Shown one piece after another: positions 14,401 to 58,296 of a stretch of 64,000 nt of DNA (position 1 is its first letter; every line of letters starts with the position of its first letter). The position numbers and the translations under genes are program-made. Source of the stretch: Lineus longissimus. Its lineage: Eukaryota > Nemertea > Pilidiophora > Heteronemertea > Lineidae. The notes beneath the pieces are model-generated. The model did not search any database. It was not told the DNA's origin and saw only the letters and a program-made list of their open reading frames with translations. Where the stretch lies: contig NC_088310.1 of the NCBI RefSeq assembly GCF_910592395.1, positions 23,701,491-23,765,490 of the forward strand, read 5' to 3'.

Positions 14401-17400
14401 ACAATATAAACAGAATAAACTCTTCGTAAAAAAAACCCACCTAACTTTTGGACTGTGTTACAAAATCATAATTCGTCTTTCAGCCACCAAGTGCGAGATC
14501 TACCAGAAGTGGGATGGTATCATGTGTAAGGATACAGTCACGGCAGGAAAGAGTGGTAGGTCTTCTTTTTTCTCTGTTAAAATCCGAATTCTCAAATAAT
14601 GTAATTGTCTTATCCAAAATTTGTTGTCTCTTCATGTGAGAGAGTCCATTTCTCCTCTTCTTCAGCCACAAAGAAAATAGATCTGTTTATAATGATGGAT
14701 GCTTCCATCTACACGGGGGAAGCTGGCGTCAGACACGCCAAGGATTTCATTGTACAGTTTATGCAGAATTTTCAAATAGATCAAACTGGAACACGAGTAA
14801 GTGATTTATGACTTGAGCTTACATTTCTATCTTCAGCTTATTTCCGTACTGTTGAATCAGATTTGCCTCTGTAAGCATCAAGTTCACTGTACTATCTTGG
14901 CAATATATTTATTTGGGCATAAAGACAGTGCTAGAAGTTAGGGATTTCAAAACATGACCCTGAACATCAGGTAGCTTGCAAAGTTACGATACTAAGCTTG
15001 ACGACTTTAATCTCTTTCTAGCTTTTCATCATACGATACGCTAAGAGTGTTGAAGTTCTAGAGGTGGCAACACTGACACCTGATATTACTAAGAAAGTGG
15101 AGAATCTGAATTACGAGCCAGCTAAGCCTGACATGATGAAGGCAATGATTGCATTGAATTCGGTACTGCGAACCAGCACTAACGTCAGGAGGGAGAAGGA
15201 TGTACACAAAGCTATACTTTACATAGGTTGGTATTGAAATTTGCATATTGTGAAACTATTTCATGGTTCGAAATATATTTCAGACAATCACGCTACGTGA
15301 CAATTCAAATTGCAGTCTTCATATCAGCTACTTTACCAAATCTAAATGCTCCATTACAGTGGTCTTTGCATCTATGTGATATTGTATCTGGTATGATTAA
15401 AGGCCTCGTTATGCTTATTTGATACCCAATAAGTATTACTGGCAAATGTGTATACGGTGTTGGTCTACTTGCCGATTGCATTACAAAATGGATCATTTTA
15501 ACATAACGAACAATGCTGTGTATGGAAAAACAAGAAAACTGTTCGATTTTCTTTTAGGTAGCATTCGAGCCCGGGAGGTTGCCGCAGCCTGGACAATCTT
15601 AGCCTACTTCACTCAACTTTACAGACAGAAGATCCGACAGTACGGACTCCCGCTCGGACAGCCGGCGCTGCAATGGTTGAAGTTCCTCATCTGGGAGCAG
15701 AATACATTCCATGTGTCGAAGGTGAACACCATCCACCACCTAGTGAGGCTAATCGGAGTGAGGGTACAGGAAGGTATGTGTCCATCTACGTAACAGGGTT
15801 TGAGAAACAGTTCTGGATACATATTTCTAATGATTATAAAGAAAAGTAAAATCTCAAAATCTCTCCATATTGTTTCTAATTGCTCCAGTGTCAACACAAT
15901 ATTTTAAAGCACAACAAATCAACAAGCTCAAACTCAAGCCTAGCCAAGATAAAAGAGGTTTTTCTGAATTTCAGATACAACTTGCAAATGGAACGAAATT
16001 GACGAAAGAGGAAGCTGCAGGCGTGAGTAGATAATTCAGTTTGCTCCTCTCATCAACACATGGACTTTAAAGTAAACGTTGAGAGACCAAACAAGTTCAC
16101 ATTGAGATTCGGCTATGCACCAGTGCTCTCCTATACAGATTCACCTGACTGTATTGTGGGTTTTTTCCAACTATTTCGACATGTGAATATTTTGTGGGAA
16201 CTTACTTCTCATTTGGATAGATTGTTATTTGTTTTGCAGGAATTACTTGCTATCCGGGCTTTAAATGGGATGAGAAAAAAGGAATGTGTCTTAAAGGAAA
16301 AGGTAAGTAAAATGTTCGAATTGTGTGAGTAATGAATGAAAATACGGATTACAGGCAGTTAGATATTACTATTTAGCATAATAAATGTCATGCAATTTGA
16401 ACTACCAGTTATTGTACGAACTAATTTCTAACCTCCTTTGTATCAACTCCTTTTTAGGCTTTGAATTCAAGTTAGATGTGATTATTCTCTTGGACGGGTC
16501 AAAGTTTACAGGGAAGGCAAACCTAGAGAAGATGAAAGTCTTCCTCATAACTCTGCTGGAAATGCGAGGCTTCTTCAACAGCGATATCCGAATTATTCTC
16601 ATCTTCTACGGCCAGAAGCCACATGTCCTACTAATGGACAACATCAAGTCGACCAAGACTTACATAGGTCAGATAAATGCTTTGAAAATGTTAAATGAGG
16701 TAAATAAAAAAGTCTCAATAAAAAGTCTTAATAATTGAGTCCACTGTAACAGAAAATGCTGTCTTATGGAAAAATAGTTCAAGGTTTAATTGGATATTGT
16801 TTGAGCTCTTTTGTTCCCTTCATATGATGGTATTTTAGTCTGCAACGTTTATGCCTGTCGTTCCCTGTATTTCTAGTAAAGTTGCGGGTCTCTATTAGTC
16901 AGAAAGGTGTCTGTCACTGATATTATTGGTATGATTTTAAACTTTCGTTACCTATAAACCTGTTTAAAGCAGGAGAAATCGTTCATTCCTTTCTGGAACT
17001 AAGTTAATCCGATGATAAAATCAATATAAATTTTTCTTTTGAAAGTTACCTGACGTGGATCCTTTTAACATAGTAAACAATGCTGTTTATGGAAAAACAA
17101 GAAAAATCGTTTGATTTTCTTTTAGGTAGCATTAGTCAAAAAGGTGTCTGTCACTGATATAATTGGTATGGTTTTAAACCGTCGTTACCTATAAACCTGT
17201 TTAAAGCAGGAGAAATCGTTCATTCCTTTCTGGAACTAAGTTAATCCGATGATAAAATCAATATCATTTTTTCTTTTGAAAGTTACCTGACGTGGATCCT
17301 TTAACATAGTAAACAATGCTGTTTATGGAAAAACAAGAAAAATCGTTTGATTTTCTTTTAGGTAGCATTAGTCAAAAAGGTGTCTGTCACTGATATAATT

Positions 17401-20400
17401 GGTATGGTTTTAAACCGTCGTTACCTATAAACCTGTTTAAAGCAGGAGAAATATTTCATTCCTTTCTGGAACTAAGTTAATCCGATGAAAAAATCAATAT
17501 CATTTTTTCTTTTGAAAGTTACCTGACGTGGATCCTTTTAACATAGAAAACAATGCTGTTTATGGAAAAACAAGAAAAATCGTTTGATTTTCTTTTAGGT
17601 AGCATTAGTCAAAAAGGTGTCTGTCACTGATATAATTGGTATGATTTTAAACCGTCGTTACCTATAAACCTGTTTAAAGCGAGAGAAAGTATGCATCCCC
17701 TCCTGGAACTAAGTTAACCCGATGATAAAATCAATATCTTTTTTTCATTTGAAAGTTACCTAATATGGATCCTTTTAACATAGTAAGCAATGCTGTTTAT
17801 GGTAAAACAAGAAAAAACGTTCGATTTTATTTTAGGTAGCATTAGTCAGAAAGGTGTCTGTCACTGATATAATTGGTATGATTTTAAACCTTCGGTACCT
17901 ATAAACCTGTTTAAAGTGGGAGAAAGCTTTCTTTCCCTTCTGGAACTTAGTTAATCCGATGATAAAATCAATATCATTTTTTCTTTTGAAAGTTACCTAA
18001 CATGGCCATTGCGGCGGACGCTGCCCACCTATTCCTTCGCAAAAAATGGAAGATAAGACCGGGCCACGTTGGGAAGGTCGTACTCTACATGGGGAGTTGT
18101 AAACCGGGCTCAGCGGAGGACGCCGCCGCCGTGACCAACAGTATGTCAGCCATGTACAAGGAAGGAGTTCGGCAGTATTCCATCCCATTTGGCCTTGTAC
18201 CGGATGATCAGTTCCAGCGCCACGTGTTCTGGAAAGAAGCAGTGTTTAAGTTTACCATGGCCAAAGGAACGACTGCTGAGAGAGATGTTGCACATCTTCT
18301 GATGAGGCTGCGAGCAGGTGTGTGTGATGTTTTCCATGCAGAAAAAAATTCCATTATTTTTGTCTCTGTTTCTTATGTCATTTTATAATTCGATACAATC
18401 ACCAATCCAGTAGTTCTTTATCCCCGACATTATGTAATTATTGTGAACCAAAAAGCCGGCATGGCATATATTTTTCTACTCATCATCTGCATTGCTTTTT
18501 CATCCTTTTAGATTCTACTTGCAAGCATATGAATGTCATGCGTGGATCAGATTGTAAACGTAAGTAAATGAGGCTTATTCATTTATTTTGCATACAATGT
18601 AACTCATCAGGACAAGCGATCTTGATATTGTTCATGATCAACAGCACCGGAGCCAGTCCCAACAATGCCATGGAGTTGTGTCACAATGCAATTTAACAGA
18701 GGATTTTTTTCATCACTTTTACTTCACGTACGTGTATGATAAAAGAAATAGTGGTTTAAGATACATGTACTTTTGCGGGTTGTATTGATGGTGTTGTTTT
18801 AATTTCAGATGCAACTTGCGCCTACGGACTGTCCTTCCGTGGACCCCTTTGTCACGAACCACCAAGTCCGTTCAATACAAGTACGTTAGCACTGCTTCAT
18901 GAAAAATTATTCCCATCAAAGCATAGAAAAATGTGGTATTAGTTTAAAAAATTGCGCACCAGACGAACGTATCTTTACTGATGCTTACAAAGTTTTAATG
19001 ACTTTTTATTTGTATTCAGGAGCCGTTTGCAGGATATCTTTTAACAAATTCTGTATCTAAATATCGATTGATTATATCCCTTATCCATTCGATGTGTTCC
19101 AGTTTTACTCTGTCCTCGAGGAACGAGATACACACCGCATGGTTGTATTGGACTACGTAAGTTATGGTGAACATTTGACTAGTGCGGAAGATACATTGTT
19201 TGACTTAGTTGACTGAATTATTTTCATCCAATCTTTCAGTGAACGTATGACTGAAAAGTATTTACATGCAAGAGTATCTGTGCACTTGTATTCTGATGCG
19301 TTCTCTTCGTTCAGATAACTAATTGTTGGTGTATTACGCCTTTGACTTAAAGGACAAGCCTCCAGTAATGCTAACTCTTAAGTGGTTGAACCCCTTGCGC
19401 GAAAGTGCTCTCATGGTATTTAGTTTGCCATTAGATTAGTCAACTCCGATAGAGATGACTGGAATAAAGGATTATCGAAGTACTTCTTTTTCTGCGTAGA
19501 AACTGCTCCATGTCCACCGCCTTTCCAGAAGACCGAGACGGGATGTATCTATCAGTGTCCAGTGAACACAATGAAGGTCGGACAGACATGCGTTGCCAAG
19601 GGTGTCGGTGGGGCCAAGGGTAAGACAATATGAACGTAACACATTGACGATACATTTACTGCAATATGTTCAGTGACAGTTATTGAAAGGTAGCTGCTGT
19701 GTTGACATAACCTTTGAACGCAATATTCAAATAACTGCTTTCCAAACCTCGGAGGGGACCACTGCTTTACTGCAGTTAACTGCTTTTGAGACTCTTCCAT
19801 AATCTTTACCAACAAAGCCGCTGCAGCCAAAGCGAGGTGGAACCAAGGTGATTTACATGTTCAATGTCTCCTTGATTATAAGTTGCCCTCAAGACGCTTT
19901 CCTCATGACAAATCATCTGTCCAATATCTGAATGCAATCGGTGCTTTTTTATGCTTTATCATTCTTTTTAGGCACAGATGACTGCAAGAAAACCCATGAT
20001 GGAAAAACATACAACGGCAAAGTGTCCAAGACAAGAAGCGGCAGGAACTGTCAGAGTTGGGCTTCACAAGTGCCGCACAAACACACTGAGAATGTATCAA
20101 ACTTTCCCGATGGGACCCTCGCCAAGGCATCAAACTATTGTCGTAATCCGAGTGGTGCTCCGGAGGGTCCATGGTGCTATAGCACAGATCCTGCTGTTCC
20201 AAAGGAGTACTGCAATGTTCCCTTGTGCAGGGTCTTGGGAAGCGGAGGGAAGCTATGTAAGAATTCATTTTGTATAAATCAATTTAAACGGCTGATTTCG
20301 GCTACGGGAGGCAGATGACTGACATTAACGTCAACATCTGCGTATTTTATCATCCAAACTCATTCTGATCTAGGCGGTCAACTGAAGCCGATTGTCACTT

Positions 20401-23400: not shown

Positions 23401-26400
23401 GAGGATGGAACTTCTATGACGATAACAGTAACAATTCAAAAGGAAAGGTAAAACCAGGATGGTCATATTTACCATGTCACGAGCGAAAGGTTATGTGCAT
23501 GTTGGACAGTGATTGTGGTTGAAAGTGGTGACATCAGGTACATATGTCCGTCCTCGCCCCATAAGGTAAGTTTGCGTGGCCTGGCGTGAATGTTTGATGT
23601 GAATGAAGGAAGAAAACACAATCTCAGTTTCTTGTTGGCAGGTTAATATCTTCAGCAATATGATAAGACTCGTTCAGCAAAATGATGACAAAGGTACTAG
23701 CTGCCGTCCACGTGAAACCCTTCATTTTAGTGCGATAAGGTAACGTAAAGATCGTTTTACGTGTTTTGGGAGGGATGAAACCAACTCGGCAGGTAGGTAG
23801 ATTCTTCGTATTTTGAAGAGTTTGAAATCAACTCATCAGGTGTTTACCAGGGTACATTCTTCTATATTTTGAAGAATTTAAAATCAACTCAACATATGTA
23901 ATCGATTATTACATGAATAAAGATACATAATAATAATAATGTGTTCCAAAGGTTTATTATTTTATATTTTGAAGAATTTTAAAACAACTCGACAGATGTT
24001 CATAAAGGCTTATTATTCTTTATTTTGAAGAATATGAAATCAACTCAACATATCTATGGGTAAATTCTTCTTTACTTTGAAGAATTTGAAATCAACACAG
24101 CAGATGTTCACAAAGGTTTATCATTCTTTATTTTGAAGAATTGAAAACAACTCAACATATCTATGGGTAAATTCTTCTTTACTTTGAAGAATTTGAAATC
24201 AACACAGCAGATGTTCACAAAGGTTTATCATTCTTTATTTTGAAGAATTGAAAACAACTCAACATATCTATGGGTAAATTCTTCTTTACTTTGAAGAATT
24301 TGAAATCAACACAGCAGATGTTCACAAAGGTTTATCATTCTTTATTTTGAAGAATTGAAAACAACTCAACATATCTATGGGTAAATTCTTCTTTACTTTG
24401 AAGAATTTGAAATCAACACAGCAGATGTTCACTTAGGTTTATCATTCTTTATTTTGAAGAATTGAAAACAACTCGGCACATATACATTGTATATGCGTAA
24501 ATTCTTCTATATTTTGAAGAGTTTGAAATCAACTCAACATATGTTCACAAAGGTTTATCATTCTTTATTTTGAAGAATTGAAATCAACTAGGCAGATATA
24601 TGGGTAAACTCTTCTATTTTGAAGAGTCTAAAATCAACACAGCAGATGTTTATCAAGGTACATTCTATATTTTGAAGAATGTGTCAACGGTTTTTATTCT
24701 TATATATACCAAATGTTTTAGTTTGAAATCGCCTCAGATTTGAAAAGTGGTATAAATCTTCACTACAAAATTAGTAGAATATGACTAATTTTCTGGTGAA
24801 TATAGATGGTGAAAATAATATTTTACAAAATAAAATATTATTTTATTAGTATCAAAAGATTGTACAAGAAAGGCACCATCTCATTTTTTGGAGTCGCCAC
24901 TACAACTTTCTTTTCAAATATCAAAAATGTTTTTGGTCGTGGTTGGGTATTGACATGTTCTGAGACGTCTTTCAGCTGAGCAAAAATGCAAGGTTGGCTA
25001 TGTTTGGGGTGGAGAGAAGTGCGTATCATTGATGGACAAAGAGTTGCGTAAGTGGCTTTCAACCGGACTGCTTGACTGTGTTCTGATAAACAAATGGCCT
25101 GTGGTAATTAGAATAGGGAACTTTTAGTAAACTGTTTGATACATTGAGAGTGTCGTGATATTTCTTTTGTGTTGAAGAAACACTATATTAATTCGGTTGG
25201 CATTTGTATTGACCCCATGATTAATCACGGACCCAGAGAGTACATAGGACAGTGCTGTAACCGGTGTAACAAAATAACTGTCCGCATGAATATGTTCACT
25301 TCTTGTTTCTTTGTCGAATTGTGGTATGTTTAGTAAAATCTAAATAGGCAACATTGCAATATTAGTCTTGATATTTCAGATGAGAACCTGGCTTACAAAA
25401 GGAAGGCATTCCAGAGCACGACAAGCAAGCGGTACAGTGGAGAAGCCTATCGGGCGGTGGATGGCGTGACCAGCAGTAAATATTCGGCCAAGTCCTGCAC
25501 CCACACTGAGGTAGTCCCAAGCGCCAAAACACGGCAGTGGTGGAGTGTTGACCTTGGGACCAGGGCTACGGTTAAGGTGGTGAAGATTACCAATCGGGGT
25601 GACTGCTGCTGTAAGTTTGTGAAATAAATTGAAATATTCTCCAGATAAATTGCTTTTCAGCAGTTTGAGCTTATACCTTTATTCTGAAACGAAAGCAAAG
25701 AAGTCTATCTTGATCGAAGGTTAGATAATTCATAGGTAGCCGTGGTTACAACAATTCAAGTGACTTTATGTAGCCCTAATATTGACGGTCAGTTTCGTCG
25801 TGCATGGAATTTTTGTATTTGACACAACATCACTCACCATCTGTTCCAGGGTAAAGAAAATATCTTCGTTACTCGAATCCTGAAACACTTTAGTATCTAC
25901 AATTCCCCCATCGTATTTTTTGCTTCTGCCATCATAGGGACCTTGTACTCAACATCCATATTTCAGGGACGCGGCTAAAGAAATTCACCATTGTAGTTTC
26001 GGGTGACGCACCCAATAGCAAGACATTCAAGGCGACGAAGGCTAACATCTGCTTCTACGAGGATAAAGCACTCACCAAGGGAGAAACCAAGTCATTTACC
26101 TGTCTGACTGCAATGAAAGGTCGGTTCGTCACCATCATCAAGCAAGACAAGGGCGTGCTGACCTTATGCGAGGTTCAGGTCTTTGGCGATAAGTTGCCAA
26201 CGCCAAGTAAGTTGCAACATTCGATTTTACATAGTCACTCGTAAACAAATATATATGATAGTTTGATGCACCCAAAAATGCTTAATTTGACCCAAAATGT
26301 TGATTGGTTCAGACCAGAGTTAAGGTCATGCCGCCGATGGTGTGGGTGTTGCTTTGAATAGTACGTTTTGCTTTTAATTGGTGCAACACGCTACACAATG

Positions 26401-29400
26401 TCCTTAAGTCTATAGTGCTTTCATCGGAGATCCTTTTATGACAGACAACTTTCAAATTATTTGCACTGAACTTATATCTTATTTCCAACCTTTTAGGCGA
26501 GAAAAAGAAAAATCTCCGACTAGACTTGATCATCCTCATCGATGCATCGAAATACACTGGAAACGCACCATTCCACAAGGCAAAAAAGTTGCTGTTCACA
26601 CTCTTGGATTCGTTCAATGTTGGTCCACAAAGCATCCTGATTCGACTTATACATTACGCTTCCACTCCAAAGCTTTACGTCATGAATAGCCCAGCGGCTG
26701 TTGAAAACTACGTGAAGGTCATCAAGGGTTTGAAATACCTCGGGACGCTACCGAGTATGCCAAAGGCGTTAGCTGAGGTTGAGAAGCTTTTGAAGAACAA
26801 GAAAAACTGGCGTAAGGGTGTCCCAAAGGCTGGTTTCTGCCTAGGAGCCTGCACAGCCTCGGTGACGGATAGCAAAGCAACAATCAGGACACTGGCTGGG
26901 ATATATCGAATGAATCTCCGTTTGTACGCGTCCCTCATCGGTGATGACCTCAACCACCAGTTGAAGCATGATATCTACTTCCCTCAACATATGCTGGTGT
27001 TGTCTCTGTGGAACAAGGCAGAGCTCAAAGCCAAGGCAATTCCATGGATCAACTCAATGGCTTCAGGTTAGTGGATACCAAACCTTTATGTCCAGTTAAC
27101 GCAGTATTTGCGTTGTCACTTGCAACGTATCACTCTTCAGAAAAACGAATAAGCCGAACCCAATCTAAAATGAGGCATGGTTAGCCAATGTGTAAGGGTC
27201 TAAACTATTGTCATAGATAGATATCGCTTTGTCTCAATAATCCAAAATGAAACGGGTCTGAAGAAATATAGACGCCTTTTTCTGGCGTTATGACTTGTCA
27301 TGATATTGAATATTACATCTTATTCTTTCAAGTACGGTGCATAGGGTTTACATGGAAGTAGGTCAGTCATTTTCAATTTCTGTTTTCAGACGGCAAATGT
27401 GCATGGGGAAAGGTTTACCGTTCAAGTAAATGCTATCGTAAGTCAATAGATAAAGCCAAAACTATTACTTTCAGAATGACGAGAAAAAGAGGAAAAAAGT
27501 CAGAATCATTTGGAGTGCACATGTATATCTAATGTGCTCACTTGGCTTATTCACAACCACTGTTTTTGTCTACTACATTACCAAAAGAACTAGAAATTAA
27601 ATGCAGTGTAACAGTTCAACTACACCACACATTCTCAAATAGCGGCTCAGGAATGCTGTGAATCTGCAAATTATAACCATGCTGATAACTTGGCTCCTAT
27701 TTACAGAGGTGGCATGCCACAAAGGATGGGTATGGAACAAGATGATGTGCGTCCGACTCCGAGATTTAAAGGCCCCCTTGAAGAAACGTGAGTTGATATT
27801 TGTCACTAATAGTCAAAACTGAAATGCTGTATCAGAGTATTGCATCGTTAGCTAAGTGGGGGCAATTGTTTATTGTATGAATCTTCGAATTCCTGCATCC
27901 AAATACTAAGTACATGTAATGTTGTGTAGGAAAATGTTCGCCATTGTCACTTTCAGCGCAGTTGACTTCAGATAGAAATGTGCTTGCGGCAAAAATATTT
28001 GAATATTTCTCTAAATTTCACGTTTGTATTTTTTTGTCTTAACAAATAATCATATCCTATTACAGCGATCGTGTATCACTTGTCACCAGTTAAAGGTAAG
28101 TCATATTAAGCACCTAAAATAGCTAACAGCAGGCCTAACACTGATGTGCATGTTTGTAGAATGCATTTGTCCCTTCCGAGTGTTATTGCTCATATCCAAA
28201 AGTGTTCAATACGTTCGTCACATTTTCAAATGTCCATTTCTTTTAATCTCGGTGACATCTGGAGAACAATCTGAAATATTATTCATCTACATCATAATCG
28301 TTCGTAGCTTGAGTTTTTAAAGTTGTCGATAATCTTAGGCGTCCAACACCACGAGTCCTCCGAGAAACCTATTACTCATATGGAATCACCATGAAATACG
28401 GTGATGCACCATCAATTACCGGACAAGTGCCTGGTGCACCAGAATGTGAAGCAAGATGTAGTGATTTAAACTGGGGGATATATCTGATAAGCGGCGTGAT
28501 TGTGAGGTCAGGGGAGCGCTATGGCGGGTCATCCTATTCAATGTGTAAATTATACAGACCAATAGAATGTACGGGTACACTTATATTTAGAGTCATTTTA
28601 TACCAGGCCATTAACACTGTAGACAATGTTATTTACAAAACAATACCAACACATTACCAACGCAACCACGGGATATCAAGAAATGTTGGCAACCACAATT
28701 CTAACTTATACTTCTACCACAAACTATGGTCACAGTCCCATTCAAAAATATAAATCAATAGAATACCACTTGGCCAATCACACGCAAGATTAGTTCCTAT
28801 TCAAGGGTTCGTGACTAAGAATAGAACGTAACCGCAATCAAGGTGATGTCGTAACGCAATGCATGTATTCAATGTTAGTTCCTGGCTAGTAGGCATGGTG
28901 AACACATGCGTTTTGTGGTCGCCTTGTAGACCTGTAGTACACAGGTATGCCTTGGCAGGAATTTCTTTTTCTATTTTGGTAAGTATCGATCGCGTCGTTG
29001 AATCTTCGTGTTACGTTGGACATCTTAGTGATATATTGAACATATTGAATTGCTCTGGTGAATCTTTATTACGGAAAATGATAGATATCCGAGATTATAT
29101 GGTAAGAACATGCGTGACAGTGCTCTTTGATCGACATTCTTTACTGCTATCGAAAGCTTCAGGTTGATAGATTATAAAATAGGTAAGTTTGAATAAAACT
29201 GAAGCTGGTCCCGTTTGCATTTAACTATTAAACGGTCCTCACTACAGACTAAGGTGCAGTCCTTCCGTGCGTGTATATAAACACCACGGAATTTTATTTG
29301 TCACCCTGCACGCGAGTAATTTTCTACCATGGGGTGCAGTACATAATACGGTAGATTACCGCGGTCCTGTCAGTACAATTCAATATTCCTTCGCGTCTAA

Positions 29401-32400
29401 TCAAAATTCATTTCCTCGCAAGCCACGAGTTGTTTAGATAGGCCGATTAACTGTGAATGTGCTACCAATCATTATTTTAACAAGAGGGTGTAATCCTTGT
29501 CTTACGAATAAACGTTTTGAATTTTATTCAGAATGCTTTAAGCATATTTTTTTGAAAGGAACGAGTATGTAAATAAAAACATTTATGTTTCACATTGTTA
29601 CAATGTATTAGTTAATCCAGGTGCTGGATCACAGCTTCTTCTGAACGTTCATGCTATTCAAAATTCCCAAGCTTTCCAATCAAAATCAGATCTGAAGCAG
29701 GCAAAATAGTCACCGAAGAACACTTTTCTTTCAGAACTTAGTCACAACCTTTTGCCTGGCCAAAAAATTGCCCACGAGATCAAATCTCGAAAAACTGTGG
29801 TTCATCACATGGGGCCTACTGTTGCAGTCATACATCAACAGACCGGTGAACAGAAATTGGTTCACGAGAATTTACCTGGCAAGAAATTGGTTCATGGGCT
29901 CAAACCAGGCGTAAAAGTCAATGAAACTTTAAAAGCTGGAAGAGAAGTGGTTCACCATCTCAAACCTGGTGAAAAACTGGTCCATCTTAAGCCTGGCGAG
30001 AAACCTGGCGAGAAGGTGACTGGTAAACCTGGCAAAGAAGGAGGAAAACTGGTCCATCTTAAGCCTGGCGAGAAACCTGGCGAGAAGGTGACTGGTAAAC
30101 CTGGCAAAGAAGGAGGTAAAGGCGTGAGGGCTGGTCGAGACGTGGTTCATAAAGTCGGTAAGAAAGGATCACCAGAAAAACTAAAAGGTACGCCATCACA
30201 AATAAATGATGAGATTTAAAGTACGGGGTCAAAGTATTTTACAAAACTTCAGCATCGTAGACATCAAGGACCTGAACCAAATCGCATTCTCCTCTCAACA
30301 TACAAGGTGAACAATCGTGCATGTTGAAGGAAGTGCCTTTTATTTTTCACAATATATAAATAGGTTATGGTCGACGACATTCACAATCTTAAGCAAAGTT
30401 GAGATTTTTGTTTTTCGGTATCCATTCTGAGCATGACTTATTTTGCCGCAGAGAAGAAGAGCGCAGTGTAAGTTAAGGTGTTAAACTGACTTCTTTACAC
30501 TTCCAGTTGTGCTACACCATACAATGAAAATGAAAGGTAAACTTAAAGTTTGCGCCCTGGATACGTAAATTTAAATTGATATTTCTTTTTGTTCGAAAAG
30601 AGTTACAAGTTTGTAATCAGTGTGATTTTAATCAAACGAGATATTCTGCATGGGCTAGAACCCTATTGATTTAAGAAGCATTTGAAAGTATTTATTGCTT
30701 CCGTTTAAAGCAAGTTTAGGGACTCTTTGAATTTCATAAGCACGAGCGATAGACAAGTTACTTGAATGTATGAACTCGATGTACTCGATGTACTTGATTG
30801 GGGAACAGATACTGACTAATTCCAACAAATGAAAACTTCATAAAATTTTGAAGCATATTTCTTTCTTTTTCAGGTATATTGCATCATGGCCAGATAAAAA
30901 AAGGTACATTGTATTATTATATGTAACTTCTTCGTAACAAGACATGCACAGTCTTAGTATGATAATGAATTGTTCGTGCTTTAAGCCCACATTGCTTTGG
31001 ACAAACGTATCCCCTGAATACTAAATCATAAACAACTTAAAGATAGTGGAACCTGACAAAAACTGGGTACAATTTATTCAACTAGTCACGTTTCGTGAAA
31101 ATCGTCTAGTGCGAAGATAACATTTAACGAGTTACATATTCTGTTCATCGTATATTGACGTGTTTCTAAACCCCATAAGGGTGATCGTGACTAAGTCATA
31201 CATGTAACTCTAATGTTGTCTTTGTGTTTAATCATTTCAGATATTCATCATGGAAGCTTACAATCGAAGGGTGTGTATGAGTTTGAGGAAAAGACTATTC
31301 GACTGACACTGAACAAAAACTCGTTTGTAATCAGCGTGATTTCAATCAAACGAGATATTCTGGAAGGGCTTGAACCCTGTTGATTTAAGAAGCATTTGAA
31401 CGTATTTATCGCTTCTGTTTAAAGCACGTTTAGGGACTCTTTAAATTGCGTAAGCGCGAGCGATAGACAAGTTACTTGAACGTATGAACTCGATGTACTC
31501 GATGTGTTTGATTTGGGAACAGATACTGACTTATTCCAACAAATGAAAACTTCATAACATTTTGAAGCATATTTCTTTCTTTTTCAGGTATATTGCATCA
31601 TGGTCAGATAAAAAAAGGTACATTGTATTATTATATGTAACTTCTTCGTAACAAGACATGCACAGTCTTAGTATGATAATGAATTGTTTGTGCTTTAAGC
31701 CCACATTGCTTTGGACAAACGTATCCCCTGAAAACTAAATCATAAACAACTTAAAGATAGTGGAACCTGACAAAAACTGGGTACAATTTATTCAACTAGT
31801 CACGCTTCGTGAAAATCGTTTAGTGCGAAGATAACATTTAACGAGTGACATATTCTGTCCATCGTATATTGACGTGATTCTCAACCCCATAAGGGTGATC
31901 GTGACTAAGTCATACATGTAACTCTAATGTTGTCTTTGTGTTTAATCATTTCAGATATTCATCATGGAAGCTTACCATCGAAGGGTGCGTATACTGTATA
32001 TGAGTATGTAACGCATATGAGTTTGAGGAAAAGATAATTCGACTGACACTGAACAAAAGCTCAAGACCTTTAGATTATGGAATTCGGATAAAAAAAGTTT
32101 TAATCATGCTCTTCATAGAAAACCAGCAAATGTAGTTGTATTTTTTGTCAGAGATGCTTTAAAGATAATGACTTCTGATCATCAGAACGATTGTAAAATA
32201 TCGTAAGTTGTGTAGAAATTGAGAAGTGTCTTTTACGCCTCACAGTGGCTGCCTCGCATTCCTGTAGAGTGTTCCCTAATTTGTTCAACAGCTTGTCCAT
32301 ACTTGCATTCTTTAAAAAAAAACACGTTAAAAATCACTTTCAACTCATTTATCTTTATTTTTCTAATACAGCTGTAATACACCATGCATTAAAGCTGAAA

Positions 32401-35400
32401 GGTGAGGCTTGGGCGCGTGCTAATGTGAAAAAAACTTGTTTCGTCCGTCACGTCAAAAGTCCAGTTTTTCAGACAAGAATCTTTTTAACAAGAATTCAAA
32501 TTGATTGATTGACCTTTAAAAAATTAAATGCTAAGATCTTGCAAAAAAGTGCAAGTAATGAGATCGACAAATGATACCGTATTGCCCCATTTCTTGCACT
32601 CAGTTTCTCCACAGACGGACTGCTCTATTGTACTTCTGACATTAATTGAGACCTAAAGTGTTGAAGCAAGTTATGCTGATAGTTAAAAATTTTACTCTTA
32701 AGGTGTGGTTCACCATGGTCACAGGGAGAAAGGTTTGTATGACATTTTATTCTATCAAAAGATGCATTATACATGTTCTTCTGGGTAACCTGTTATTGAG
32801 ACAGTACTCAAAGACATCGTATAGACTCAGCTTCAGAGAAATAAAAAATTAGGCTAGTACGATCAAGAATGAATAAAGATGATGCATATTGAGATTGACG
32901 TAGAACATATACAAATATGGGCTCTTAGCCTCTTCTGAGAACAATATTATGCAATAAGCCAATTACGGCGTAAAAGGAATAATCCCGAGTTTAGTTGTAC
33001 ACGTATTACATGATTGCTTTCCCAAAACCCACACGAAGAACTACCTCAGTAAATTACTACGTTAATGACGTTAGACATCTCCTATTTGATTTAGTTCTCC
33101 ATACACGTTCCCTTCTATTTGCTCATTTGACGGTAGTCTAATAACTGGCGTCGACAACAGTTACTCCTGAAACATTGAAAATCGTATCAACTGAAATATG
33201 TTCTCCTTATTTCCATCAACACTCTGATGGTACAGATTTTGTATTCGTTTTCAGTTATCATGCATCATAGCCGTGGAAATAAAGGTGTGTTTGCAATTCC
33301 CTCCTCTTTTGTATGTCCGTCTCAAGAGTCTTTTAACTGTCGTAGTTGATATCTTAACTAAGACTTTCACAAGAATCTTACAGGGATTGTACATGCACTT
33401 GTTCACGAAACTGAATGAGTTTGTAACAATCGTCTCTGGATTTTCGACATGGAATGGACTATCACCTCGATGCATATGTGGACAGTATCGGAATATGTAC
33501 CTGCAGTATCGGAATATGAACAATAGAATATGCGATATATTTCCAAAAAAAGGTTCACAGCCATCGATTTATTTGTGACATTCATTATGTATACTTGCCT
33601 ATTTCAGTTTTGATTCATCATCTGATCGAAGCTGGCAGTAAGTAAAGTCGCCAGCTTTAGTATCATAATGCCAGCTAAATCGCATTAAAGTGATCTTTAG
33701 CACTTTTTGGAAATAATTTGCCCAGGAAATGGCCACACCACCATCCCGTCAGTGTTAATCGTTTTATCGATAAAAACAACTTCAGTTTTAAGTTTTTGCG
33801 AAACATATGTTTGATTTTATGAAATGAAATATATGAATAAAACCCGTTGGTGTAAGTTTGGTCATCATTGCTTTAAACCTTCAATGAATGATTCCCACAA
33901 TAAAAAGGTGGGCACAAGCCAAGGCAACGTTTTTAAAAACGACTATAACTTAAAGCTGGAATAGGCCCTCTATCAAAGTGGCAACCACACAAGGTTCAAA
34001 TCGCCTATGAGACGAGACGAAGATCCCCACCGTATTAACATGAAAGCCTTGATTGTTCAACGGTTAGAATACTGGACGTTTGATTTGGTGGTCACGGGTC
34101 CGACTCACCGTGTTTCCACTATATTTTTCTCTTCTTTTCTTGTATTCATTCTTGTACACGTACATATGGTCTAATTATCATTATTATTATTATCATTTAA
34201 TCATTATCATTGTTTTGAACTAACAATATGACAATATTCTTCTGTAGGAGTTCTTCACCATAAGGCTGGCGTTCATGCAGGTATGTCGGCAACTTCCATT
34301 TATAACAACTCGGCAACTTGATTTTAAGACGTAAGATTCACGTAGAAAATCTGTTAATAAGTTGCATCACAAATTGGCAAGGTACCAGTGAAGTTTCATA
34401 TTCCAGATCGAGAATGCCTAAGGAATCGATACTTTGAAAAAGTTATTTTTGCAATATATATAGTGATATTTACGAGCCCCAAGACTATCATACAAGACTA
34501 CCTCAGTCTTTGACTACATTTATGTTATTCTTTGCAGGCCTTATTCAGCATGTTCATACGAAGTCGGGGGTCCTTCATCATGGGCATACAGCAAAAGGTG
34601 TTGTTCATCATAGAACGTCAGAGAAGGGGGTGCTCCTTCACGGATCGTCAAAAAATGGTGTCCTTCATCACGCACATTCAGAAGAAGGGGTTCTTCACCA
34701 TGGAAAAAAAACAAAAGAAATTCTTCATCATGCAAAACCAGTTAAAGACATTCTTCACCATGGAAAAAAGACACAAGACATTCTTCATCATGCAAAACCA
34801 GTTAAAGACATTCTTCACCATGGTAAAGTAGGAAAAGACATTCTTCACCATTCAAAACCGAAAAAAGACATCCTTCATCAAGAAGAAACAAAAGAGGACA
34901 TTCTTCATCATGGTACCAAGAAGAAAAACGTACTTCAGCACGTTCTCTTGAAGAAAGTGATTCTTCACCACGGTATACCGAGGGCTAATGTTCTCCATCA
35001 TGGTAAATTCATGCAAGGAGCACCTAAACTAGGTACTTATGATTTAACGTTTCATGTTGATAAAATGGATGTACCGCTACATGCGTTTCTTATGTAAAAA
35101 TGTATTATGGCATCACTTGTGGGACTGAACCACTTCTGAAACTAAAATTCCAGGGCCTTCATACTGTTGGCATTGCTAAATAAGATACACTTATGGTGCA
35201 AAGGCATAGCAGCCGGGGAGTTCTGGGCAGGTTGATTTATATTAAGATCCCACACATGTCTGTTCTCGGCCCACGCAAAAAGGTGCCTCCTCGCGGTGAC
35301 GTTGTTATCGAGAAATAGGCCCTTTAAATCTCGCGCGTAAAACCCACTCGTAGCGTGTTTACTTCCTGGTTCGGTGGGTTTTTAATACCAGCCTATTCGA

Positions 35401-38400
35401 GCGCTGACGTCACGGGGAATCCCCTATTGACTGGAGTGGTTTAGCATATGAATTATCCACAAAATTATGTTTTATTTCATGAAAAAAGTGTGAAATTGGA
35501 GAGAGTTTTTGAACAATTGCGAGCGGAGATATCTTGGATATGTTGTCATAACATGCTAATTAATGAAGATTTTCGAAATATTCTAAGTTATTCTGAAATT
35601 ACATTTACAATCCACTAATAACTCAATTTCATGAATTTGGTCCCTAGCCTATCGGCCTTTTTTGCGTGGCTGGTCACAATTTTCATCTTTATCTATATTT
35701 GTTTACAGAGATACTACATCACGCAGTCTTAACGAAAGGTGAGAGGGCGATCTCATATCTAATAGTTCTTTAATTCAAGCTCAAAACGTTTGATTTCTTA
35801 TAATTTCGAATATTTTTTTGAGTGCCAGGACCATGTAGAGTCATAGCAATAGGGTCACTCATTATGATAATCGCAATACAGGAATCTTCAAATGACATTT
35901 ACTAACCTTCTCTAGCATTAGCTGATGAATCTATAGCGACAAGATAACGTGCAACATGCGCCTGTTCATCATAACCTACGTGCCTATTGTAATCTTGATA
36001 TTTGATTCACATTTGCAGTTATTATAGCACATGGTAAAAAAACTGTGATGCCAACCTGCCCGGTGTCCAATGACAAACTTATGGAGATGAAGGTTCCAGA
36101 GAAGTTAGTGGTGAAGGATGTTGACAAAAATGAACTGCAGAAGCTGAAACATACATTGGAGAAGGAGAAGGACATGCCAATTAAGGAGGTGGCGGATCTG
36201 ATCAAGAAGACAATGAAACCCAAACTTACACCTGCTGGTAAGTGAGCAATATACACTAAACACATACTATAAAAGAAAGGCCTTCCGTTTATCATTTTCA
36301 TTTCACCAGAACCGTTAGATATCAATTTCTTTCACCTCAGTTTATAAAATAATTAATACGGGACAACATGTATACCTCTTGATATGTACCAACATTATTG
36401 TTTCAGGCTGTCCGAAAGGAACTTTGTTTGGTAAAGGGGTTTGTTATGGTGAGTATCAAATTTTATCTCGATACATATATGTACATAATGCCACTGAACA
36501 TGCATAGCAAAGGGCTAATTTGCTTTAAATATTTGGCAAGACTAATTGAAACCAGAAGTGAGATTGATCAACCTGTTCGTTCTCGATAAAAACTTGGTCA
36601 CAATTTATATTCATAAGTCCTCACGATGTTGTGTGTTTGTTATCTCCGATGTAGCTGGTATTGATGAGAGATATTGTCGGGTACAAAATACATCCTTTGC
36701 GTTTTCAGTATGCGTTCCACGAGAGCATGCATCGAGACGAGAGAAGGAACTCCTTGAGGTAATGAGGAAGGAACGAAAAAGGTTGGCGGCAGAAGCCAAA
36801 ACTCAGAGTAAGAAGAAGAAGAAACGAGTTAAACTAGCAGATATCATTGCAACTAACAAGAAGCAGAACAGGGTTAAAAAGGCAGTCAGCAAACTCTTCA
36901 AGAAGCTCCATGCAGGCAAAGAAAAGGGAAAGACGAAAAAGATTGCTGTCCTGAAGAAAATCCTTGCGGAATCGAAAGGAAAATTAGATGAGAAGTCAAT
37001 AGATATCATCAATAAATCAATTCAGAATAAGGAGACAGATAAACAGATATTGCAGAAGTTGTCAGCTTATAGGACTAGAAAGGTTACGGGAAAGATGGAT
37101 TCATCACTGAATATGAAGGTGATCAGAAAGGAACTGTCCAAAAGCAAGGAATTCAAAGCTTTGCCTGAGAAAAAGAAAGCTAAGGTTATCGCCAAGAAGT
37201 TGTATGCACGCCTGCAGGAAAATATAAAACTGTTAGCCAAAAATCTATCGAAGCAGAAGAAGCATTTTGCAAGGAATATGGCAATCGGTACAAACTCAGC
37301 CAAACTTGCTGCCATAGATGGTAAGAAGCTAATGAAAGAGCTTGCAAAGAAACAAAAGAATCTTCATGCGGCTGCTAAGGCTATGAAACGTGTTGTCAAG
37401 GTAGAAGCAACAGCAGTGCCGCACTGGGAAATGCCAACTCTCAAACCTAAGGAAGGAACAAAGGCCTCAGAATCTACCATAAAATCAAAGAAGCTAAGGA
37501 AAGTTGTTTCGCCTAAAAATGCTGTTAAACTTAAGCATCTAAAAAAAGTGCACTTCCCGAAGAGAAAATCCACTGATAAGTCCTTGAAATCAATTGCCAG
37601 GATTATTGAAAAGGAAGCAAAACTAAAATCAAAGATAAAACCTAGGCTCACGACTACTGAAGACAAGACTATATTCCATAGCCTTCCGTCTAATGTGGTT
37701 ATGCACCACAAAAAATCGAAAACTAGCAAGAAACCTAAATCACTAGCATCTGAAAAGTCTGAGCCAAAGAGAGCTAAGCTTAAGTCCATACACCATACAC
37801 TTCCATCTAATGTGGTTATGCACCACACAAAACCGGGAACTAGCAAGAAACCTAAATTACTAGCATCTGAAAAGTCTGAGCCAAAGAGAGCTAAACATAA
37901 GTCCATACACCATACACTTCCATCTAATGTGGTTATGCACCACACAAAAACGGGAACTAGCAAGAAGCCTAAATCACTAGCGTCTGAAAAGTCTGAGCCA
38001 AAGAGAGCTAAACTTAAGTCCATACACCATACACTTCCATCTGATGTGGTTATGCACCACACAAAAACGGGAACTAGTAAAAAACCTAAGTCACTAGCAT
38101 CTGAAAAGTCCAGGCCAAAGAAAGCTAAACTTAAGTCCATACACCATACACTTCCATCCAATGTGGTTATGCACCACACAAAAACGGGAACTAGCAAGAA
38201 ACCTAAATCACTAGCATCTGAAAAGTCTGAGCCAAAGAGAGCTAAAATTAAGTCCATACACCATACACTTCCATCTAATGTGGTTATGCACCACACAAAA
38301 ACGGGAACTAGTAAAAAACCTAAGTCATTAGCATCTGAAAAGTCCAGGCCAAAGAAAGCTAAACTTAAGTCCATACACCATACACTTCCATCTAATGTAG

Positions 38401-41400
38401 TCATGGATGAAACAAAATCGGGAACTGATAAGAAACCATCGATCGCAATTAAAAATATCAAGACTAAAGAGAAACCTTCAGTTCTTAAGGGCACACCTAA
38501 ACTACCATCTACCAAGGAATTGAAGAAACTGCTAGCAGCTGAAGAGGCTAAGCTAAGACAGAAACCAGAGTTGACGACAGAGGAGCCTGCAGCAGCCAAT
38601 GTAAAGGTAGTAACATCACAACCACAGACTACAGAGAAACCTTCAATTATTAAGGGCACACCTAAACTACCATCTAACAAGGAATTGAAGAAACTGCTAG
38701 ATGCTGAAGAGGCTAAGCTAAGACATAAAACAAAGTTGACGAGAAAGGAACCTATAGTAGCCAATGTAAAGGTAGCAACGTCGGAACCACAGACCACAGA
38801 GAAACCATCAATTTTCAAGGGCACACCTAAACTACCATCTAACAAGGCATTGAAGAAATTGTTGAAAGCTGAAGAGGCTAAGCTAAGACAGAAACCAGAG
38901 TTGACGAAAAAGGAACCTATAGTAGCCAATGTAAAAGTAGCAACATCGGAACCACAGACCACACAGAAACCTTTAATTATCAAGGGCACACCTAAACAAC
39001 CATCTAACAAGGCATTGAAGAAACTGTTGAAAGCTGAAGAAGCTAAGCTAAGACAGAAACCAGAGTTGACGAGAAAGGAACCTATAGTAGCCAATGTAAA
39101 AGTAGCAACATCGGAACCACAGACCACACAGAAACCTTTAATTATCAAGGGCACACCTAAACAACCATCTAACAAGGCATTGAAGAAACTGTTGAAAGCT
39201 GAAGAGGCTAAGCTAAAAGTAAAACCTGAGTCTGCTAAGAAACCTACAGTAGGAAAGCTAAACATCAGACCATCAGAAGCATCGGCCCAGAAGATAACGA
39301 GGGTTTTGTCTGAGGTGGCTGCAAATATGAAGGTCACTGCAGCGCCAGGGATGGTAAAGTCGAAGATTGATCAAAAAATAAAACTTAAAACTGCTTCTCA
39401 CCAACTTCCCACAAAGGTTGTCATGCATCATATCAGGTTAAAATCGGGAACTTCCAAGCATCCTAAGGTGAAATTGCTGAAAAAGGGCTTTGTGAAGAAG
39501 CCGAAGATGACAGCTAAACCACCGTCAAAAAAAGTATTGGCAAAACTAGTAAAGGCTGCCAATGCTTCGGTTGAAACACCTGTCGGAACGACATCGAAGA
39601 TTTCATCCAAAAAGGTGATGGCTCATCTCTCGATGGCTGCAAAGAGTTCAACGATCAAACCAGGCAAGGTCACACCTCTAGTACCATCTACTCCAGAATT
39701 AGAAAAACTACTAAAGGACGCAGAAGCCCTTAAGGTGAATGGAAAGAACGCATCTAAAACACCAACCCAAAAAATGACAGATCAACTGGTGAAGGCAGCA
39801 AATTGTACCACCACTGTAAAAACAGCCGTAACCACACCGAAAGCACCAACCACGAAGGAACTAGATCAACTTTTGAAAGCTGCAGAGGGTACTAGCAAGA
39901 AACACACTAAAGACGCATCAAAAACGTCATCCATAGAGACGACCATTCGACTATCAAAAGCTATAAAGGGTACTACCAGGGAACCAGCTATTAAGGTTGA
40001 ACCAACTACACCATCAACAGAGGAAATAGGAAAACTAATGAAACCAATGAAGGCTGCTGAAGTTATCAGCAAGCAGTCCAATTTCCAACCAAAGGAATCA
40101 TCTGAACAAGATTTAGCCAAACTAATAACCACTACGAAAGAAACTAGACAGAAACCTCCTAAGGTGTCACCAAAAGTACCATCCGGACAAGACACAGCTA
40201 AGGTAATGAAGGCTGCAGAGGAAACTGCCAAAATCAAACACATACAAGAGAAATTAACAGCAAAGTCTACCAAACGACCATCATATGTCATAGTCAAAAC
40301 AACAGTGCAATCACCGAAAATAGCTACCACTGCAACCAATGCAAAGGTTACCTCCAAAGCTTCAGCGCCACCAAAGATAACCCAGGTAAGGGAAATTTCT
40401 GAAGAATGGAAGAAGGCCGTTCGGTCTAAACACTCAACGACAAAGAAGGTCATACGAAAAGCACCAGCTGTCAAGCTCAAGACGCCAGTTGCCTCAACAC
40501 CAAATGCGCACTCAAAGTCGGCAAAGAAGGAGTCTGCTTCCGAAGCCATAATGAAGGTTTTGGCAAAGTCAGGTAGAGGGGGCACAGTGAAACTCCCACA
40601 GTCTAAGACAACGCCAAAGGTACCGATAGAGGAGTATCTTGCTAAACTATTGGCCAAAGCGACGACTACAATCAGGACTCTGTCTGTAGGTAAAAAGCCA
40701 AAACCGAAGACTGCATCGAAATCGAAGATGGTAGAACTACTGAAACAAACGAAGTCATCTAGGAAACCTGCATCAAAAAAGGATTCATCGTCATTACCAC
40801 AGGCAACAGATAATCCATTGCCCACAATGGCAAGTAAGGGCAAGGTTAGCACCACCGAGACCCTGGCCAGTGTGGTGAAGACCAATGAACTGCTGTCTGG
40901 AAAAAAGGTCGAGAAATTATTAAGAAGTCAACCGAAGAAGAGTACGACAAGATCGCCTACAATAGACGCGGTTACCAAACCTACGGCAGCTGTCGCAGGA
41001 AAGCAAACTGACGCAACTAACGATTTAGGAGGGCCTCCTTCCTTCGATCACATGGCAGAGAAAGATATACTGAATGCACTTGAAGCAGGAGATAAGACAA
41101 AAGGTACAGCCGAAGAAAATAAGGAGAACCTTGAACCGCCTGACATGAACAAATTAGTGGCACAAGTCGAACACAAATCCAAGATACCCACAGCAAAGAA
41201 AACAATCAAAAAGACTCCAAGCATGGAACGAATGACCAACATCTATGGGTTGGAGAATGCAAGTTGGGGCAAAGGGCAAAAACCAGCTGCTTCTGCGATT
41301 AGTAAATCACTGCTGAAACAGCTTTCGGATGATGCTGGTGACAAGGTTAAGACTGTGGATGCAGCTGGAAGAACAACGGGCCAGCCAACTGCAAAGAACG

Positions 41401-48100: not shown

Positions 48101-51100
48101 CATAAAATCAGTTATCTTTGAATTCATCCTCTACCCTTATTTCAAGTGGGAAGTGCCATACATAGTCCCCCGTGACCATTTCATGGGAAAATAACACTTG
48201 GGCTCCAGTCCTCCATGGTGAAGTCCCAGTTTCTTTATGTGTTCGATATATATTATTCATATAATTATAAAGTCTCACAGCAAAGATGTTCTCTCTTGCA
48301 GTGGCACCACACACGATCTGCCCGCTTGGAACTCAGCAAAGCGGATATCGATGCGCAGGTATGTGTCTAATTCTGAATGACAAGTACATGAAGACTTACA
48401 GTCAAATTACATTGGTAATTTCAAATTAAAAGAAAACGAATTTATATCGAGCTTGCTTCATTTCTTTCAAAGAACATTGAGCTAAAAATATGAGCCCTAT
48501 GCCGGTTACCAGTAAGCTATCATTTTGAAGCAACCGCCATTGATAAACGGTGACCATTGATTCCATTTCCTCAACAGCGGTTTTCTTTCGCAAACTCAAA
48601 AAGTCAAAGTAGTTGTAAAACAACATACATGTATAGTAATTTGACTAGCGGCTCGTTCCTTTAATCGTTCTAGATGTCGCCTGTTATCACGGTTTGATGA
48701 AGTATGGACAGGTCTGTGCACCAACACTGTCACCATGTAAGTACATGTATGCATCTAACAATCAGAAAATGACATTTGAATTGGAAAACTTATCGATATT
48801 TACGATTTCTTAACTGCAACATAGATATGATTTTATGTTATCTGGTTATTACTTTTTTGCAGTTCAACCACATCCGTGGATGCACCACCCTGTAGACCCG
48901 TTGGTTCACCAACCGCACCCGGCTCACGTCCTACAACGAATCACTTGCCCACCTAACACAGTTACAGTGGGTTTCAAGTGTAGGGTACCATGTCCAGCAA
49001 ATTCAGTTATCGTGGGAGGTCAGTGCAAGGCGGTTGGACAAGGCATAAAACGTTAGTATCAGTGGTTCGTATCTCTGTGTATCTCTGTGCTAGTATACAA
49101 GTGGCTATCGTTCGGTAGGAAAGTTCACCCAAAGATCTGATTCAGCGAATTCTCAGGTAACTACATGTATATACAGCATGACATGAAAGTGAGTGTTTCA
49201 AATCATTAAGCAATCCATCGCTAAATGCATACGATTGCATACATTGAACACAGGCCTACATTATATTAGTTTGCACTGACCAAGGTGCATTACGCTGATA
49301 CGTAAGCATTTCAAATAAACTGTAGGTGCCCCTAGAGACGTTCCTTTCTCTCAAACACTACAGCACATCTAGATTATAACACACTGTATTGAAATGACTT
49401 TCAGCGATTGCACCTGGGGTCTGTCCAGCAGGATACATTCTCCAGAATTCATTGTGCTCACAGACGAAGGTGGTCTTAAATTCCACTTTAGGTAAGGTAA
49501 AAATTTAATATACCGGGTTGTTTCATACATTTATGTTTCTCGCAAAGTGATAATGGTTCACAAGGCAAAGGTAATTTTGTAGCATCAACGATAGTATAGT
49601 GATATCAACATAAATGTATTAACTGTGAAAAGTCTTAACTCATTACGAATTCAAAAGCGTTTGAAAATCCTTGTCGTTCGTGTTATATCATCATGAAGAC
49701 ACTTCAAAAAAAATTAAGAAGTGAACAACATGACAAAATTGCTATCTGACAATTATCTATTTCAGTGTCACCAACTCACGCTTGGTCGTTGTACAAACAT
49801 CGTCCAAAAGTTGTAATGGCAGCTCCTCCCCCGAAGCAAGTGCCACCGCCGCCACTGACTGAGGCTGAGAGGGAGCAAATGAAGATTTTGAGGAGATCAA
49901 AGGGCCACAATTCCGGAGCTGCGAGTGACCAACAGCAAGCATCAACTCCAACGAAAAACCCACACGAAACGGTGGCAATGCCAACGAAACAAGCTCAACC
50001 AAAAAGGAGTAAACACGCATTTCCATTGCTTTCAAATGACGTTCCAAGAAAGCCTGCAAACCAGGACCCCGATGCCTTGCAAAAGATATTGGCTGAGATA
50101 GTCTCTGATGAGTTTCGACTACCCCAGGATCAATCAAAGGGTGAATCCACTGGAACAGCCAAACCTCCTGGTTATGTAAAATTGTCAAGCCCCAAAGAGC
50201 CCACTTTGCAGTCGCCACTTCAGATACCAGCTGCCAAGGCCTTCACGACAGGGAAGGTCACTTCGGCACTAAAGAGGGGCGTGACTGTTCCAGCAGAACC
50301 ATACAAGGCTGGTAAGGGTCCTCCTGGATTCAATGTTAGAGCGGCGATGGACAAGAAGAAAATTGCAAAGAAACGTATTGGTGATCATGAGGATATATTC
50401 CATGTGCGACCACCTAAGCCATCCAGATTCTCACCCTTGGGTATAGGGGAACCAAAAGATCAAATTGCACCTGTCGACCGGCAAAAGTCACAACAGCTCC
50501 ATTCTCATATTCATACTGTACGAAATCGGACTTTCAAAGGTCAGTCTCACGTCAAGGTGTTGGACTTCGTCAACCAGAGAGTCGGGGCCAAACCAAAGTT
50601 AGTTGGTCAAGCCAGTCAAAAGATTCAACGAAAACCCCCCACAAATTTGACGCCGGCCAAGAGGCAATCCTCGAATGTTGCAGCACAAAGACCTCAGTCA
50701 CCAATAGCGAGAGTACCTGGACCAGCGTCACCACTTCAGAATGTTCCACAAAAACCGCCAATTAAACCAGTTTCGGGTGAAACAATTCGGCCGCTACGGC
50801 CAACCTTTTTGACCGCAACTCCCAAGGTCTTGAATGTGGTAGCTCCGAAAAAGATTGCTTCGACACCAAGAGAGATCAGGTATTCAAACTTTGTGGCTCC
50901 AATTGGCAAGCAGAAACCTTCGCTGAAAATACCAAAGCCTTCGGGTGCAGTTGTTGGGCAGACACCTGCAAATTCGCCGCTGAAGAAGCCAGTGCAATTT
51001 GGAGCTCCTCGGAGCAAGATCAATCCACCAAGGAGAGTCATGCCACCTAAGTCACCCATGCTCAATAATGACCCTGTTGCTTCGTCGATACCGAACATCC

Positions 51101-57862: not shown

Positions 57863-58296
57863 GCAGTGAACAGTGCCGTGGCTAATCGGTCAAACTGAAC
57901 CTTCCAGCACAGCTATCGCAGTTCGAGTCAGGCAGCTGGAAACCCTGTCTCTTGATTGAGTTTTGGCAGGTTCAGGTACGAATTTTGCGCCCACACGGCA
58001 TATATCCCTGAAGATTTTATATTCTTGAGCCACCAATTTGGCAATAAAAATACACAACTACGGTGTAGGCCTACCCTTTTAATATGAAGCTTATACAAAA
58101 ATGGCATAATAAAGTAGGAGATAAACATTGATTGACCTGTTATTATCAGATAATGCTATGTAATCATGAATTATTTGTATAGTTTTAAGACGTATCATTC
58201 AAGAAAAATACTTCTGAACCGGTTGCACAGCCAGGTCATAAAGGCAACGGTAGGCCTACCTATAGTTTAGTTTTCTCGACCTTGCTTTTTTCAGCT

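Follow-up and report, generated by a model that had tools for sequence, protein, structure and literature searches.

In the accessible portion of the 2006 report on chicken Muc13, the Pro/Thr/Ser (PTS) domain is described as carrying one repeat unit per exon, and alternative splicing is proposed to control its length (PMC1552070). As far as the available excerpts describe the micro-exon genes (MEGs) of schistosomes, their coding region lies mostly in very small symmetrical exons, which permit alternative splicing (PMC4350168), and the MEG proteins have very few motifs in common besides the signal peptide (PMC10526429). In a 64-kb window of the nemertean Lineus longissimus genome (contig NC_088310.1; the window is the whole stretch of DNA analysed, 64,000 nucleotides), we found an array of twelve putative micro-exons between 28066 and 35738, each encoding one decapeptide-like unit that in most cases contains a His-His pair, inside what appears to be a large gene with VWA domains. 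All coordinates and counts below refer to this window, and the segments and exons lie on its plus strand.

The array is like chicken Muc13 in having one exon per unit of a low-complexity extracellular repeat domain, as far as the available text of that report describes it (PMC1552070), and unlike it in the unit itself, which is a mucin Pro/Thr/Ser repeat in Muc13 and a His-His decapeptide here. The spliced repeat domain does not have the PTS composition of a mucin, as Pro, Thr and Ser together account for 26 of its 276 residues (9.4%), and exon phase is never mentioned in the accessible Muc13 text (PMC1552070). With the schistosome MEGs it shares very small symmetrical exons, and the available MEG texts add long introns, secreted products and alternative splicing; it differs from them in that one short motif is common to the micro-exons and in that these lie inside a VWA mosaic gene. 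Whereas very small symmetrical exons hold most of the coding region of a MEG, only 363 of the 8907 modelled coding bases (4.1%) here are in exons of 36 nt or less. Tandem exons of 81 bases were reportedly described in a schistosome by Davis et al. in 1988. The first-pass annotation of this DNA had been aware of no described family of this kind, and this remains so for the motif: among the literature matches listed, consisting of titles and the starts of abstracts with subscription papers mostly outside, no gene with a His-His decapeptide per exon was recognised. It does not remain so for the architecture, since chicken Muc13 and the schistosome MEGs, as their accessible texts present them, are comparable in kind. 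The sources available thus suggest that one repeat per exon, with splicing as a means of tuning, was already known, and that a His-His decapeptide per 30-nt exon is new.

All twelve segments listed in the first-pass annotation are present, each with AG before it and GT after it and each open in phase 1-1; eleven of them are 30 nt long and one is 33 nt. They had been fitted to a single template, x-[VI]-[LIVM]-H-H-x4-K, of which the one decapeptide-like unit per exon and the His-His pair (in 11 of 12) hold up, 10 of 12 also ending in Lys, while the strict form is matched by only seven. These seven are VVLHHTMKMK (30507-30536), GILHHGQIKK (30874-30903, and again in its recent copy at 31588-31617), AVIHHALKLK (32372-32401), GVVHHGHREK (32703-32732, with the weakest splice sites of the set), VIMHHSRGNK (33255-33284) and EILHHAVLTK (35709-35738). 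Among the exceptions, DIHHGSLQSK (31241-31270) and its recent copy DIHHGSLPSK (31955-31984) have the His-His pair one residue earlier, VLIHHLIEAG (33608-33637) has Leu at position 2 and is without the terminal Lys, and RVLHHKAGVHA (34248-34280), the 33-nt exon, has 11 residues. The tandem acceptor TAGGAG of this last exon holds a second AG, 3 bases on, which would give an exact 30-nt exon but has a lower score. The remaining exception, PIVYHLSPVK (28066-28095), is divergent, with Tyr-His at the core, and stands 5' of a putative Cys-containing exon (28323-28574); it has the top full donor score of the set and ranks second of 320 by the splice score described below, and we tentatively count it as a member of the array.

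The recent copies belong to a tandem duplication detected by self BLASTN of 26001-36600. The stretches 30609-31322 and 31323-32062 (714 and 740 bp) align over 740 columns with one gap and 91.9% identity, each copy contains two micro-exons, and the breakpoints lie in introns. Tandem duplication that took in exon and intron together has therefore altered the size of the array, and the region 30609-32062 is possibly copy-number variable. As 31588 was recently copied from 30874, and 31955 from 31241, the number of independent units is ten and not twelve.

The micro-exons are very probably real exons and not relics, judging from their motif, their splice sites and their reading frame. Segments of 30 nt between AG and GT whose peptide fits ^.[VILM]{1,2}HH number 11 on the plus strand and 0 on the minus strand, against a Markov expectation of 0.055 (mean of 200 first-order sequences, maximum 2); 28066 is not one of these, and the 33-nt exon is counted through its 30-nt reading (34251). 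In a motif-free test, all 320 open plus-strand segments of 30 or 33 nt between AG and GT in phase 1-1 were ranked by a splice score that takes no base of the exon itself into account. Of the twelve micro-exons, eleven fell within the top 13 places, the intruders being 14767 and 29532, and 32703, with its weak sites, had a low rank. The same score separated the 17 HH-positive segments (6 of them outside the listed twelve) from the 303 HH-negative ones (p = 1.3e-6; 1.6e-5 without the two recent copies). For the 10 non-recent copies, extended acceptor strength against the window's 3902 AG dinucleotides and intronic donor strength against its 3611 GT dinucleotides gave combined p values of 2.4e-8 and 9.0e-6, respectively. 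An exon-chaining program blind to the motif picked nine of the twelve.

Some features of these analyses weigh against so favourable a picture. The exon chain is without 31241, 31955 and 32703. The two decapeptide exons formed part of the material on which the program's codon table was trained (6 of the 12 training intervals, having no open frame, were skipped), and the automatic chain contains some false exons, e.g., one in a retrotransposon. The 22-exon gene model presented below was, moreover, hand-curated for phase 1-1.

To look for extra micro-exons, a profile trained on the listed units and the units of a 16-unit exon of the same array, without 31241, was scanned over segments of 27, 30, 33 or 36 nt between AG and GT on both strands and yielded no extra unit above 11.4, the top score among 40 second-order Markov sequences, a value that 33608, 31955 and 31241 themselves do not reach. 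A unit-like stretch, GVQHHESSEK at 28339 (AG before it; score 14.2), is without a donor and overlaps the putative Cys-containing exon in another frame, and was treated as a coincidence or a decayed unit.

Within the array, conservation at the protein level is seen in the [VI]-[LIVM]-His-His core. We compared eight register-aligned non-recent micro-exons, excluding 28066 and 31241. Identity in six 30-base blocks of flanking intron was 26-29%, which is random, whereas codons 2-5 were 68% identical, with a proportion of synonymous differences (pS) of 0.86 and of non-synonymous differences (pN) of 0.19; for codons 6-9, pS was 0.74 and pN 0.73. As the introns are saturated and pN is low in codons 2-5, the core has been kept while the rest of the unit is saturated. 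Each of the 10 non-recent copies is free of stop codons in the phase 1 frame; for the two remaining frames this holds in 5 and 7 of them. Most units were found via the motif, and the low pN at the His codons is consequently in part ascertained, which takes something from this result; intron saturation and the splice-score ranking are free of this bias.

The units are not confined to micro-exons. The exon 34538-35032, in the right block of the array, is phase 1-1 with a weak donor (0.3 in the exon chain) and encodes 16 tandem decapeptides in exactly the register of the micro-exons, 12 of them with HH. In the left block, the exon 29735-30187 (151 codons) carries degenerate decapeptide units (VVHHMGPTVAVIHQQ, KLVHGLKPGV) together with Gly-Pro-Lys repeats, and the next exon after the array, 36019-36237, begins with a degenerate unit (VIIAHGKKTV). 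It is followed by a giant Lys-rich exon (36709-42510; 1934 codons, 20% Lys) built of 39-residue repeats (6.5 copies) and 55-residue repeats (4.6 copies), of which the 39-residue repeat, unlike the decapeptide in sequence, has five pairs of HH motifs, the two of a pair being ten residues apart. The 16-unit exon, the degenerate units at 29735-30187, the pairs of HH motifs in the giant exon and the recent duplication, with its two non-independent copies, all go beyond what the first-pass annotation had reported. When 30507-35738 is fully spliced in silico, it gives 276 residues with 55 His, 40 Lys and 23 His-His pairs, and the spacing from one pair to the next is exactly ten residues in 13 of 22 cases. 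The twelve micro-exons thus hold one unit per exon, but the same domain also has multi-unit exons, and the micro-exons, lying between and beside the larger decapeptide exons, would extend with them one repeat domain. Pattern searches for relatives of the 16-unit exon gave 22 matches in prokaryote genome contigs and 2 in viral contigs, none of which was confirmed, as expected for an animal gene. One stretch of the giant exon reached 26.9 bits against Pfam MBDa (cut-off 27), probably through composition.

From the phase-compatible exons, we infer that the plus strand carries one large mosaic gene, which would encode a large VWA-containing and probably extracellular or secreted protein. The curated model, from 26497 to 43451, has 22 exons, all with AG/GT and phase 1-1, and 2969 codons without a stop. 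Pfam VWA (PF00092) matched 10 of 24 scanned translations (E cut-off 0.1 or 0.05, by scan), seven above and three below the cut-off, and the VWA exons on either side of the array, 26497-27066 at its 5' side (46.5 bits, match at 26502-27071) and 42870-43451 at its 3' side (121.1 bits, match at 42860-43459), are both phase 1-1, as befits a VWA-containing extracellular mosaic. Among PDB sequences, the VWA at 42870 matched collagen VI, mussel PTMP1 (4cn8) and integrin alpha-M; its match to PTMP1 reached 93.4 bits over two domains (E 1.4e-25), the best single PTMP1 domain (53.5 bits) being about level with integrin alpha-M (54.9 bits). The VWA at 45532 had collagen VI as its top match and PTMP1 as a weak one (38.0 bits), and that at 26497 matched collagen VI only. 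A kringle (83.8 bits) lies at 19972-20256, and there are several short Cys-containing exons in the gene. The putative one at 28323-28574 has an open frame, AG/GT and phase 1-1, is absent from the exon chain and had no Pfam match.

The explanation that we favour, by a modest measure, is that of a functional array of phase 1-1 micro-exons in a VWA mosaic gene, with a metal-binding role for the His-His pairs and a changeable number of units. Each micro-exon is a complete, frame-neutral unit whose skipping keeps the modelled frame open. That any subset of the units could be included without loss of frame, as had been proposed at the outset, is borne out: all are symmetrical, and joining each model exon with any later one produces a stop codon at 0 of 231 junctions. 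The repeat number can therefore be altered by about ten residues at a time, through duplication, as seen here, and perhaps through exon skipping. If the latter occurred, the number of 30-nt His-His micro-exons in the mRNA would set the number of metal sites in a secreted material, with the frame kept and the His-His spacing nearly kept at each step; we consider such a splice-tunable cross-linker rather unlikely. Titin offers a parallel in its PEVK region, where symmetrical repeat-coding exons are present and their inclusion sets the length of the elastic region. Titin differs from this gene in having larger exons, in being an intracellular muscle protein and in lacking His-His.

Real micro-exons that are always spliced in, with the unit number set by genomic duplication only, would explain the array as well, and we give this a somewhat better than even chance; it coincides with the favoured explanation except in the part on splicing. 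The micro-exons (n = 9) do not differ from the other exons of the gene (n = 21) in acceptor (p = 0.80) or donor strength (p = 0.33), and, their donors being not significantly weaker, they show no sign of regulated skipping, which tells against splice tuning. Symmetry is not specific to the array either, since 1-1 is the commonest exon class of the gene (33 of the 47 exons of the automatic chain before 57 kb), and the recent duplication has demonstrably altered the unit number in the genome. Against fixed inclusion stand the weak splice sites of 32703 and the fact that very short exons are often skipped. Given ordinary splice sites and a common symmetry, constitutive inclusion is at least as likely as tuning.

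As to the role of the units, the likeliest function of the His-His pairs is metal coordination and the cross-linking of a secreted material that is rich in Lys and perhaps disordered, by analogy with proteins of mussel byssus. Zhao and Waite are said to have described, in 2006, mussel foot protein 4 as a histidine-rich, metal-binding protein of the load-bearing junctions of the byssus. Mussel foot protein 4 is built of a tandem His-rich decapeptide, in which it resembles the array, although the two decapeptides are different. Mussel PTMP1 is comparable through its relationship to the VWA at 42870, and differs in that it has two VWA-like domains, no His-His array being mentioned in the available text. 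According to the accessible part of one paper, vWF-like (von Willebrand factor-like) domains are common in load-bearing systems, e.g., mussel and sea star adhesives (PMC4754843). In the Lineus protein, the His-His pairs would act as metal-binding, reversible cross-linking sites of a secreted load-bearing or adhesive material. This metal-binding reading is without structural support, as the single-sequence structure model of the 16-unit exon has a mean predicted local distance difference test score (pLDDT) of 38.9 and the decapeptide repeat had no match among PDB sequences at E up to 1. The pairs could instead serve pH-dependent assembly, or merely space basic residues in a Lys-rich disordered matrix protein, and this is a serious competitor that falls a little short of an even chance. 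It fits the 18% Lys of the modelled protein and the very low confidence of the model, which is compatible with disorder but does not show it. Mere spacing or pH response would, however, leave two features aside: constraint on the unit is strongest at the paired-His core and leaves the neighbouring residues free (a contrast that is partly ascertained), and the ten-residue spacing of His-His pairs recurs in the unlike repeat of the giant exon. Metal binding is the role we prefer.

The array most likely grew by tandem duplication of exons with their introns, as the recent duplication illustrates, and one exon also grew internally, by 30-bp and 60-bp repetition. Beyond the recent duplication, comparison of the introns of up to 800 bases with one another revealed one weak pair (35033-35708 and 35739-36018, z 4.2). 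Conversely, introns may have entered a pre-existing tandem decapeptide exon at a recurrent AAAG/G-like junction, the exons themselves never being duplicated; AAAG-like unit ends do repeat in register in the 16-unit exon, where 14 of the 16 units end in the base G, yet about ten separate insertions would be required and the sequence shows exon-plus-intron duplication directly, so we regard this origin as improbable. That the segments are relics, old duplicates of a coding repeat left behind in introns and spliced no more, has very little to commend it: slight variation in unit length and departures from the strict template would be natural in such relics, but around introns at random identity the frame, the splice sites and the core codons have been kept, the phase 1 frame is open throughout the non-recent copies as the other two frames are not, and eleven of the twelve segments rank among the top-scoring splice candidates of the plus strand.

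Elsewhere in the window, we noticed several other features. Upstream, 3156-18385 contains a series of diverged VWA-like exons amid small Cys-rich exons; by eye, many of the former share a phrase like GSCTPxP and several have non-canonical metal-site motifs. A retrotransposon remnant, of the non-LTR (non-long-terminal-repeat) type by eye, lies inside the gene at 11494-13938 (RVT_1, 40.2 bits), and a GC skew of -0.217 at 12001-16000 overlaps it. At 49766-54604 there is another giant open exon (about 1612 codons), Pro- and Lys-rich by eye, for which Pfam gave no match with E up to 0.05. Further downstream, at about 58.3-64 kb (58295-63964), there are exons of a dihydroxyacetone kinase-like gene (Dak1, 36.8 bits), in which 59585 and 59939 encode one identical 20-residue stretch, suggesting a duplicated exon.

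The locus is a clear example from nature of exons that correspond one to one with the units of a short peptide repeat, and it has both modes of growth, exon-plus-intron duplication and tandem repetition within an exon, side by side and in the same register. Exons of 30 nt are commonly missed by annotation pipelines, and repeat domains of this kind may for that reason be under-counted. If inclusion of the micro-exons varies, the array would act as a genetically encoded control on how densely a protein material is cross-linked.

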